This document shows positions 27,517 through 31,272 of a DNA stretch of 64,000 nucleotides, in pieces (the stretch's first letter is position 1; each line of letters starts with the position of its first letter). The position numbers and the translations under genes were made by a program. The notes below the pieces were generated by a model. It saw only the letters and a list, made by a program, of their open reading frames with translations, had not been told where the DNA came from and searched no databases. This DNA comes from an uncultured Pelagibacteraceae bacterium (GTDB lineage: Bacteria > Pseudomonadota > Alphaproteobacteria > Pelagibacterales > Pelagibacteraceae). Location of the stretch: contig CACOJM010000001.1 in assembly GCA_902627565.1 (NCBI GenBank), positions 62,001 through 126,000 of the forward strand. Reading direction: 5' to 3'.

Positions 27517-28803
27517 TTAAGCTACTGCAAAACTTACTACACTTAGTGCAGCAATTACCCAAATAGCCGGGCTTACATCAAATTTACCTGTAAGTATTTT
27601 GATAGCAGCATAAGCTATAAATGCTAAAGCTATTCCATGAGAAATAGAATATGTGAATGGCATAGCTAACATTGCAAGGACAGCAGGTCCTGACTCAGCA
27701 ATATCATCCCATTCAATATCAGTAATATTTCTGACAAATAGTGTTGCAATATATATTAATGCAGCACCATCTATTTCTTTAGGTAAGCTTGTAGCTAATG
27801 GACTGAAAAATAAACATAGTAAGAAAAGTATTCCAATTACTAGTGAAGTCATTCCAGTTTTACCACCAGCTTTTACCCCAGCTGCTGATTCTACATATGT
27901 TGTTACAGTAGATGTACCCATCATAGCACCTGCTACCGTAGAAACACTGTCAGAAAGCATTGCTTTATCAATGTCCTCGATTTTACCATCTCTACCAATT
28001 TTTCCTGCTACATTGGCAACACTAGTAAGTGTTCCAGCTGTATCAAAAAAGTCTATAAAGAATAAAGTAAAAACAACAGTTACCATCGATGCAGATAGAG
28101 CAGCGCCAAGATCAAACTCAAACAAATAAGTCATTGGCGGCGGTGGTGATACAACACCATTGAATTTTCCGACACCAGTTAACCAAGCTATTGCACTAAA
28201 TACAAGTATACCAATGATTATGTTTCCTTTTATTCCTTTTTTCTCCATCACAATCATAGAGACAAAAGCACCAGCACCAAGTAATAGGAGAGGATTTGAT
28301 AAATCCCCTAATTGAACTAAAGTTACAGGATTATCCGCTGTTAATCCCATAATTTCAAATCCAATGATAGCAAGAAACATTCCTATTCCTGCTCCAATAC
28401 CAAGCTTTAAGCTTTTTGGAATTGAGTTAATTAACCAAGCTCTTATTGGTGTAAGTGAAATAATTAAGAACACTACACCTGCTACCAATACAGCTCCCAA
28501 AGCCTCTGCTGGAGTGTATTCCATTCCAAGACAAACACCGTATGCAATAAATGCATTTATTCCCATACCTGGTGCAAGTCCAACAGGCCATGTCTTTGCA
28601 TAAAAAGCGCATATAAAACACGCAAGTGCCGTCGCACATGCAGTAGCAGTAAATACACCACCAAAGTCAAAGCCACCATCAGCTAATATGACTGGATTTA
28701 AAAACATTATGTAAGCCATAGTTAAGAAAGTAGAAACTCCGGCTAAAACTTCTGTTTTAAAATCAGTCTTATGTTTTTTATAGTTAAAGTAGTTATCTAA
28801 CAT
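27517..28803 (-). CDS. NCS2-family purine permease, AzgA-type (hypoxanthine/guanine/adenine)
   Basis: TEVLAGVSTFLTMAYIMFLNPVIL, GMGINAFIAYG, FFIDFFDTAGTLTSVA. Confidence 0.92.
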   Translation of the reverse strand: MLDNYFNYKKHKTDFKTEVLAGVSTFLTMAYIMFLNPVILADGGFDFGGVFTATACATALACFICAFYAKTWPVGLAPGMGINAFIAYGVCLGMEYTPAEALGAVLVAGVVFLIISLTPIRAWLINSIPKSLKLGIGAGIGMFLAIIGFEIMGLTADNPVTLVQLGDLSNPLLLLGAGAFVSMIVMEKKGIKGNIIIGILVFSAIAWLTGVGKFNGVVSPPPPMTYLFEFDLGAALSASMVTVVFTLFFIDFFDTAGTLTSVANVAGKIGRDGKIEDIDKAMLSDSVSTVAGAMMGTSTVTTYVESAAGVKAGGKTGMTSLVIGILFLLCLFFSPLATSLPKEIDGAALIYIATLFVRNITDIEWDDIAESGPAVLAMLAMPFTYSISHGIALAFIAYAAIKILTGKFDVSPAIWVIAALSVVSFAVA

Positions 28804-29364: not shown

Positions 29365-30687
29365 ATGGCATCAAAAAGATCAAATCAAAGATCTTCAGGA
29401 AATACTAATCAAAAACTTCCAATGAATAAAGCGATACCTTTGGGAATTCAACATGTTCTAGCAATGTTTGCTGGAAACATTACAGTACCAATTATTGTTG
29501 CTGGAGTTTTTGGTCAGACACCTGAACAAAAAATATTTCTTATACAAATGGCTTTGTTTGTTGCAGGAGTAGCAACTTTAATTCAAACTATTGGTTATAG
29601 AGATATAGGTTCAAGACTACCAATTATTCAAGGAACTAGTTTCGCATTCATTCCAATAATGTTACCGTTCAAAGCTGCAGGACTTGGTGCAGTTCTTACT
29701 GCTGCATTCATTGGTGGAATTTTTCAATTTTTTATAGGTAAAGTTTTGAAACCAATAAGACATTTATTTCCACCATTAGTAACTGGAATTGTAGTTTTGA
29801 TGATTGGATTTAGCTTATTAAAAGTTGGTTTTATGTATGCAGGCGGAGGTGGATACTTAATGAACAATAAACCTGAATTATTTGCAAATGCAAATCATTT
29901 AACTATAGCATTTACAGTTTTGATTGTTTCATTGTTTTTTAATATTAAAGGCAAAGGCATGGCATCTTCTGCTTCAATCTTAATTGGAATAATTGCTGGA
30001 TACTTAGTTGCTATGGCATTGGGAATGGTTAATTATGGAAAAATAGCATCGGCATCTTGGTTTGCACTTCCAATGCCACTTCAATATGGAATTGATTTTG
30101 TGCCTGGCGCAATAATTCTTATGTTGTTTATGTCGATAGTAACAACGATTGAAACCATTGGAGATATAAGTGCAACAACAATGGGTGGTGCAAAAAGAGA
30201 AGCTACAGATAAAGAACTTTCAGGTGGTATTATGGCCGATGGAGCTGGTACTATTTTTGGAGCTCTTTTTAATGCAATGCCAAATACATCTTACTCACAG
30301 AACGCAGGACTTGTTGCATTTACAGGTGTAGTAAGCAGACATGTAGGAACTGTAGCTGGAGTTATTTTAGTTCTTATGGGATTATTTCCTAAGCTTGGAG
30401 GGATAATAGCTGCAATGCCAGAGTCTGTCATTGGTGGAGCCGCAATTATTATGTTTGGAATGATTGCATCCGCAGGTATTAAATTGGTTTCAAAATCAGA
30501 GATGAGTCAAAGAAATATGTTAATTTTAGCTCTTTCTTTATCGTTTGGTATTGGAATGTCTTTATTACCGGACTTTGTTAAAAATATTCCAGATTTTGGA
30601 ATAAGTCTTAAACTTTTATTAACAACAGGACTTATACCGGCTGGGTTATTAGCGTTTGTATTAAACGCAGTTATGGCAAAAAAATAA
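29365..30687 (+). CDS. NCS2-family xanthine/uracil permease
   Basis: IPLGIQHVLAMFAGNITVPI, QGTSFAFIPIML, NAMPNTSYSQNAGLVAFTGVVSRHV; ggagg RBS. Confidence 0.93.
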   Translation: MASKRSNQRSSGNTNQKLPMNKAIPLGIQHVLAMFAGNITVPIIVAGVFGQTPEQKIFLIQMALFVAGVATLIQTIGYRDIGSRLPIIQGTSFAFIPIMLPFKAAGLGAVLTAAFIGGIFQFFIGKVLKPIRHLFPPLVTGIVVLMIGFSLLKVGFMYAGGGGYLMNNKPELFANANHLTIAFTVLIVSLFFNIKGKGMASSASILIGIIAGYLVAMALGMVNYGKIASASWFALPMPLQYGIDFVPGAIILMLFMSIVTTIETIGDISATTMGGAKREATDKELSGGIMADGAGTIFGALFNAMPNTSYSQNAGLVAFTGVVSRHVGTVAGVILVLMGLFPKLGGIIAAMPESVIGGAAIIMFGMIASAGIKLVSKSEMSQRNMLILALSLSFGIGMSLLPDFVKNIPDFGISLKLLLTTGLIPAGLLAFVLNAVMAKK

Positions 30688-30699
30688 TTTAAATTTAAA

Positions 30700-30723
30700 C
30701 TTGTGGGGAGAAATCCCCACAAG
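30700..30723. terminator. Perfect 9-bp hairpin between convergent NCS2 permease and hsp20; T-rich tract on the minus-strand side
   Basis: cttgtgggg-agaaat-ccccacaag. Confidence 0.8.
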
Positions 30724-30736
30724 CAAGGTTAGTTTC

Positions 30737-31183
30737 TTATTTTATATCAATAAGTCTTTTTTTCTTATGATCTGGCAAAATTCTTTCACAAGCTACTGTT
30801 AAAAGACCATCTTTTAACTCTGCACCATTTACCTTTACATCGTCCGCAATTGTAAATGATCTAGCGAATTGTCTTTGTGAAATACCTCTATGAATTACTT
30901 CACCATCTTCATTTTTGTTATCAGACTTGTTAATTTGTTTAGTTCTTACAGTTAACAAATTGTCCTCAAACTCAACTTCAACATCATCTTTCGTAAAACC
31001 AGCAAGAGCAACTTCTATTGCATAGTTATCCTTACCTGTTTTTCTAATGTTGTACGGTGGATAATTTGATTGCATTGTCAAACCTCCATTGCCCAACATA
31101 TTTTCAAATTGATCAAACATATCGTCGAAACCAATTGAAAAAGGTCTTAATGAGTTGAATATAGATAGATCCTTACTTGTCAT
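30737..31183 (-). CDS. Hsp20/alpha-crystallin small heat shock protein (true start likely ATG 31183, not TTG 31207)
   Basis: SNYPPYNIRKTGKDNYAIEVALAGFTKDDVEVEFEDNLLTVR, GISQRQFARSFTIADDV; AGGAGG at 31190-31195 upstream of ATG 31183. Confidence 0.95.
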   Translation of the reverse strand: MTSKDLSIFNSLRPFSIGFDDMFDQFENMLGNGGLTMQSNYPPYNIRKTGKDNYAIEVALAGFTKDDVEVEFEDNLLTVRTKQINKSDNKNEDGEVIHRGISQRQFARSFTIADDVKVNGAELKDGLLTVACERILPDHKKKRLIDIK

Positions 31184-31189
31184 ATATAT

Positions 31190-31238
31190 CCTCCTTTTAT
31201 TAAGCAAGTTTTATGTAAGCCCCATAAGGCGACTTACA
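31190..31238 (-). promoter_or_regulatory. Candidate ROSE-like RNA thermometer in hsp20 5'UTR
   Basis: Upstream hairpin TGTAAGTCGCC-TTAT-GGGGCTTACA (31214-31238), then TTGCT (31203-31207) able to pair with the AGGA of the AGGAGG SD. Confidence 0.5.
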
Positions 31239-31244
31239 AATCTT

Positions 31245-31272
31245 ATATAGTAATCAATTGAAATCTTTCAAG
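31245..31272 (-). promoter_or_regulatory. Candidate heat-shock sigma (RpoH) promoter of hsp20
   Basis: CTTGAAA (31266-31272) - 15 nt - CTATAT (31245-31250) on the minus strand, same architecture as upstream of groES. Confidence 0.65.

Follow-up and report, generated by a model that had tools for sequence, protein, structure and literature searches.

The hsp20 locus and its promoter

The window, by which we mean the whole 64,000-nucleotide stretch of DNA analysed here, is part of the genome of a SAR11 bacterium (Pelagibacteraceae), which comprises 31 contigs totalling 1.03 Mb. Its minus strand carries hsp20 (31183 to 30737), the gene that the leader described below would regulate, which encodes a small heat-shock protein of 148 aa (PF00011, 64.4 bits) and is the only HSP20 (PF00011) gene found in the genome; an intrinsic-terminator-like hairpin of 11 pairs, located by pattern scan at 30699-30724 on the same strand, would end its transcript. 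On this strand a gap of 97 nt separates the stop codon of a prolyl-oligopeptidase-like gene (31281) from the hsp20 start codon (31183-31181), and it holds, in order, CTTGAAA, ACTATAT, a first hairpin (hairpin I), CUUGCUU and AGGAGG ahead of the ATG. Two purine/uracil-type permease-like genes lie nearby (29365-30687 and 27517-28803), one of them convergent with hsp20.

The original prediction had placed a heat-shock-like promoter on the minus strand, followed by a leader of about 55 nt with a 5' hairpin, TTGCT (31207-31203), TAATAAA and AGGAGG (31195-31190) before the ATG at 31183. Sequence, coordinates and spacing all proved correct: hairpin to ATG measures 55 nt, and the leader 55-60 nt overall. 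The promoter consists of a -35-like element of heat-shock (RpoH) type, CTTGAAA (31266-31272), and a -10-like element, ACTATAT (31245-31251), which begins 17 nt after the TTG of CTTGAAA; the predicted transcription start lies about 6 nt further downstream, at about 31238. The spacing between TTG and the CCCATAT-like -10 element is exactly 17 nt in 114 of 120 SAR11 leaders with a recognisable promoter, and RpoH is encoded in the same genome (TIGR02392, 364 bits). By its sequence, the leader is preceded by a putative promoter for the heat-shock sigma factor, a feature that is usual, if not universal, in the ROSE-like class. In another SAR11 genome (L117, G057:C12), hsp20 is divergent (58% identity) and sits on a contig of 8 kb; its promoter is of the TTGACA/TATAAT type and its leader is a variant one. 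This copy may be viral in origin.

Two predicted hairpins and the proposed pairing of the Shine-Dalgarno sequence

Hairpin I occupies 31214-31238 on the minus strand and reads TGTAAGTCGCC-TTAT-GGGGCTTACA, or as RNA UGUAAGUC(G)CC-UUAU-GGGGCUUACA, with a bulged G at 31230. Downstream of it, the strand CUUGCUU (31202-31208), which contains the ROSE motif U(U/C)GCU and in which G 31205 is either bulged or opposed to another G, is the predicted partner of the Shine-Dalgarno (SD) sequence AGGAGG (31190-31195) in hairpin II. The gene itself is widespread: of 101 genomes from the genus, 82 have it, as do 130 of a sample of 147 from the order. All 97 distinct leaders among the closest 111 loci have the promoter-like sequence, hairpin I, CUUGCU, AGGAG and ATGACAAGTAAG. 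When more distant relatives were added to these closest SAR11 leaders, giving 123 distinct sequences, hairpin I reached at least 5 bp in 122 of them (14 of 615 dinucleotide shuffles) and the anti-SD/SD helix at least 5 bp in all 123 (1 of 615 shuffles), while no shuffle of the 615 contained both; (U/C)GCU and its short distance to the SD were retained in 123 of 123. An alignment of the leaders made with MAFFT misplaced the SD and was excluded from the pair counts.

Compensatory change is most evident in hairpin I, where 7 of 10 pairs show two-sided changes among 68 SAR11 leaders and where pairs four and five, counted outward from the bulge, occur as A-U, G-C, U-A and C-G types, lineage by lineage, around a conserved bulged G and GCC/GGG core. 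The counts of these pair types involved no model fitting, yet the hairpins in them were located by pairing. Over the whole leader, 96.3% of cells in the same 68 sequences are paired, two-sided changes occur at 10 of 16 pairs, and cells with two-sided changes number 52 against 9.8 in shuffles, counts that come from an alignment made with a covariance model, that is, one fitted to the structure. The covariation score is 0.256 and falls to at most 0.066 when partners are slid by 1-3 columns, a control that this fitting biases in the structure's favour.

The core of hairpin II consists of the SD and the motif; its pairs are nearly invariant within SAR11 and are therefore weakly tested there by covariation. 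Its fourth pair varies, being A-U in AGGAGU leaders, C-G in CCUUGCU/AGGAGG leaders and, in the bulge register, mismatched as A-G in the group to which the window belongs. The helix of the window is short. Genus g3 (L139, L140) has the other motif letter, CUCGCU, and the sister family f2 has UUAAUC(G)CU-UAAGG-AGGAUUAA, in which UUAAUC(G)CU, again with the UCGCU letter, pairs with AGGAUUAA; the thermosensor stems of the sister lineages are longer than that of the SAR11 window. Across bacteria and phages together, the flanks of the SD helix do covary, with pairings such as AACUUUGCU with AGGAGGUU, UAACUUGCU with AGGAGUUA and UUAAUCGCU with AGGAUUAA, and none of 5000 shuffles, which ignore relatedness, equalled the observed value.

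These comparisons support the proposed ROSE-like reading, since the TTGCT motif and the hairpin are conserved in relatives and the hairpin covaries. The short TTGCT-AGGA helix of the original prediction recurs in 123 of 123 leaders but extends further than was proposed, as CUU(G)CUU with AAGGAG(G), in which the G is bulged or faces another G. Covariation, suggested at the outset as a check, is abundant in hairpin I, while the core pairs of the SD helix hardly vary within SAR11. At the sequence level the leader allows the imperfect pairing of U(U/C)GCU with the SD, CUU(G)CUU with AAGGAGG, around a bulged or mismatched G, and it has the architecture of two to four hairpins with the SD in the last and a stable hairpin before it, here hairpins I and II, both seen in the covariation.

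The folding calculations are less uniform. Locally, hairpin II of the window is predicted to pair CUU-G-CUU with AAG-G-AGG through a G-G opposition, at -6.2 kcal/mol at 15 C and -3.0 at 37 C, a weakening with temperature that is common to any helix; a fixed bulge register was nearly unstable in energy and was set aside for this better G-G register. In the full-length ensemble of the window, computed for the entire leader with 30 coding nucleotides attached, CUUGCU frequently has other partners and the pairing probability of the SD is 0.02-0.18 at 15-42 C. Ensembles of whole leaders are mixed, with almost no SD pairing in the window, L133 and L136 and strong pairing in L139 and L330, and we have not taken them as proof of SD pairing.

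The minimum-energy fold at 37 C contains hairpin I and pairs CUUGCUU not with the SD but with AAGUAAG (31171-31177, minus strand), which runs from the end of codon 2 to codon 4. Codons 2-4, ACA AGT AAG (31172-31180), are invariant in 111 of 111 SAR11 loci, which points to a putative constraint at the RNA level beyond that of the protein. This fold, the invariant codons and the fixed AAG at Lys-4 together make a second, exclusive lock possible: CUUGCUU would pair with codons 2-4 and hold the SD and AUG in a loop, this pairing and the SD helix would be alternative, mutually exclusive states, and the thermometer or switch would then be of a slightly different make. We regard this model as a tentative alternative, with perhaps a minority chance of being right. 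Its helix is computed at -5.9 kcal/mol at 15 C and -2.4 at 37 C, near the values of the SD helix; codon 4 is AAG throughout, whereas Lys in the gene is more often encoded by AAA (965 versus 370), and conservation of a single codon is rare (4 of 108 conserved positions). On the other hand, the codons differ in genera g2 and g3, where this helix is lost and the SD helix is retained; the search pattern behind the codon-usage figures itself fixed codons 2-3, whose invariance comes solely from the 111-locus comparison; and early codons are open to other constraints.

Model searches and the leaders of phage hsp20 genes

At gathering cut-offs, no Rfam family was reached anywhere in the window. Below the cut-off, RF02523 (ROSE_3) aligned over its full length (1-69 of 69) at 31238-31178, with 18.7 bits and an E-value of 0.22; the Rfam check envisaged in the original prediction thus found the exact site at a score far from the gathering value of 43, which leaves the leader outside the family. 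Relatives scored higher (L124, 27.0 bits, E 0.033; L138, 23.0 bits), and among 142 alphaproteobacterial genomes none reached the gathering score, making this a membership test of low power. RF00435 (ROSE, gathering score 45 bits) gave no match in this genome, which likewise gives no membership, and none at or above the cut-off in the same number of alphaproteobacterial genomes (0/142), three falling just below it. The Rfam ROSE models are insensitive, and our results suggest that they miss many short ROSE-like elements. Class-wide searches matched one genome with RF02523, three with RF00435 and two with our own covariance model, so that no mapping of ROSE elements across the class is possible from them. 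Other Rfam matches in the region, including mir-924, snoZ5, AdoCbl-II and RT-6, lay far under their cut-offs and were read as chance.

Our own covariance model, built from 28 bacterial leaders, gave the window leader 75.8 bits and the next site in the genome 18.6 bits (E 0.9); the leader is the only site of this model in the 1.03 Mb genome. In a distant alphaproteobacterium (L404), a plain ROSE element before hsp20 matched RF00435 near the cut-off, at 41.9 bits; a gene resembling a phage terminase large subunit lies directly before this hsp20 (L404, 121-1440).

Related hsp20 genes occur in 508 records of the 'phages' collection, whose leaders were examined in a sample, and the viral sample comprised 66 hsp20 loci from a viral-contig search and 160 more obtained with two phage queries. 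A (U/C)GCU-SD helix of at least 5 bp was present in 148 of 164 distinct viral leaders, against 0 of 820 shuffles, and hairpin I of at least 5 bp in 126 of 164, against 25 of 820; several of the remaining leaders contain, by eye, variants such as AUAAC(G)CU with AGGUUAU or UUAACUGUCU with AGGAGGUUAA. A covariance model trained on bacteria only gave full-length matches at 76 of 81 phage loci, in every case at the leader (best E-value 9e-9, weakest up to 0.3). A sequence-only model from the same alignment matched 52 of 81, mostly in part, which indicates that structure carries much of the phage match. Among 72 distinct phage leaders, two-sided changes occur at 15 of 16 pairs, in 212 cells against 69.8 in shuffles, and the covariation score is 0.429 against at most 0.085 with slid partners. 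ROSE_3 (RF02523) aligned full length (1-69 of 69) to phage Melnitz-3, at 34.1 bits (E 0.00096). The leader occurs in phages of SAR11, Synechococcus, Prochlorococcus and Methylophilales; among the named ones that have it are HTVC008M, Mosig, HTVC103P, HTVC115P and Melnitz-3, as well as syn9, P-RSM4, P-TIM40, S-ShM2 and P-SSM7.

From this evidence it is probable that marine phages carry thermometers of ROSE type in their hsp20 leaders, namely T4-like phages of SAR11, Synechococcus, Prochlorococcus and Methylophilales, and other pelagiphages. If so, infected cells would make a virus-encoded chaperone in response to heat, the RNA element would move together with hsp20 between bacteria and viruses and would reach even cyanobacterial hosts, and viruses would sense temperature through RNA during infection, a connection between ocean heat and infection that can be tested. 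The protein tree puts SAR11 Hsp20 in a single clade next to a group of viral proteins, with cyanophage Hsp20 as a separate group, so any transfer was not recent. This phage distribution is the part that should surprise specialists, and its novelty is provisional: literature searches, with subscription journals mostly outside their coverage, gave no report of ROSE elements in phages or of thermometers in cyanophages or SAR11. A paper on cyanophage Hsp20 does not mention the leaders (PMC3827213), and the main text of a survey of structured RNAs in Pelagibacter mentions neither heat shock nor thermometers (PMC2704228).

Several further observations concern individual phages. The two-hairpin ROSE-like design is seen at phage hsp20 loci L154-L388, L220-L228 and L413-L422, and leaders of the pelagiphage type adjoin a TATAAATA sequence resembling the T4 late promoter. 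In P-HM1 (L414, 232) and S-SRM01 (L418, 184), the annotated hsp20 starts lie inside the beginning of the predicted hairpin I or right next to it, and the true starts probably lie about 45-50 nt downstream. The small heat-shock leader of the large Pseudomonas phage Callisto (L420, 160-255), with a GUGCC..GGGCUC hairpin and AUCUUGC..AGGAGAU, appears by eye to be another ROSE-like element.

Proposed mechanism and comparison with known thermometers

Taken together, the hsp20 leader of the window is very likely a compact two-hairpin ROSE-like RNA thermometer. From its parts, their conservation and covariation and the promoter-like sequence, we infer melting and, through it, temperature-dependent translation. 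RNA polymerase of RpoH type would transcribe hsp20; at normal sea temperature CUUGCUU would close the SD AGGAGG through a short helix in which one G, either bulged or facing another G, lowers the stability, and ribosome loading would be poor; on warming, the SD helix would melt while the stable hairpin I stayed folded, the SD would open and Hsp20 would be made. SAR11 bacteria are among the most abundant in the sea and are known for few regulators. With a thermometer on hsp20, the one HSP20 gene detected in this genome, the cell would sense warming directly and would need no protein sensor for it.

Two further explanations may be considered: (i) the leader could be the binding site of a regulator, notably of Hsp20 itself at hairpin I, with temperature acting through the amount of free Hsp20, as suggested by the gammaproteobacterial IbpA, which binds and represses its own leader, in E. 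coli repressing its own mRNA through the 5' UTR (PMC10474464), and by the conserved bulged G and GCC/GGG core, which seem to go beyond what stabilising the stem needs; RNA binding by the SAR11 protein is, however, purely hypothetical, and such binding would add to the SD lock without replacing it and could operate together with a thermometer, which leads us to consider it doubtful, somewhat more so than a lock on codons 2-4; and (ii) the absence of any riboregulation, the leader combining a conserved transcription start, a stabilising 5' hairpin, a strong SD and a chance resemblance to UUGCU, is very improbable, since, although the genome is AT-rich and has 15 occurrences of the loose pattern YTYGCT-N(3-14)-AGGAG, every SAR11 leader keeps (U/C)GCU close to the SD, the flanking bases covary with the SD side and the design recurs in distant phages.

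The thermometer reading places the SAR11 element beside known systems, ROSE-like thermometers having been described for small heat-shock genes of alpha- and gammaproteobacteria (PMC10474464); like them, it lies in the leader of such a gene (PF00011, 31183-30737). Motif and architecture place it best in the ROSE-like class, as a compact representative present across the lineage, and outside the Rfam families. The two-hairpin model ROSE_3 (RF02523) aligns full length to the window leader, which differs from it in AT-rich stems and a shorter loop in hairpin I. With the alphaproteobacterial ROSE of RF00435 (ROSE1 type, as in L404) the leader shares a first hairpin, there GUGAAUGCC-AAUU-GGGUUCAC, with the same bulged G and GCC/GGG core, the pairing of UUGCU with the SD and the hsp20 gene, whereas it has no middle hairpin and scores under the Rfam cut-off. 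Thermometers are also known from phage genomes, those named being lambda cIII, blyA and a sigma-70 leader (PMC11182007); in the portions available of the reports on SP-beta blyA and other phage thermometers, these are of the FourU motif and belong to other genes, with no ROSE type or hsp20 among them (PMC11182007, PMC10586365).

The closest design is that of Pseudomonas ibpA, whose short two-hairpin ROSE-like thermometers, in leaders of 61-62 nt, are thermoregulated in vivo and in vitro, hairpin II alone being sufficient (PMC3669281). Both have a leader of about 60 nt, a promoter for the heat-shock sigma factor, a stable hairpin I, a hairpin II in which U(U/C)GCU closes on the SD, and a small heat-shock gene. 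The SAR11 hairpin I differs in its bulged-G GCC..GGG core, as in alphaproteobacterial ROSE, and the SD helix of the window is short and weak. The original prediction had called the leader unusually compact; compact it is, and the match to the proven Pseudomonas thermometers of 61-62 nt makes it not unprecedented.
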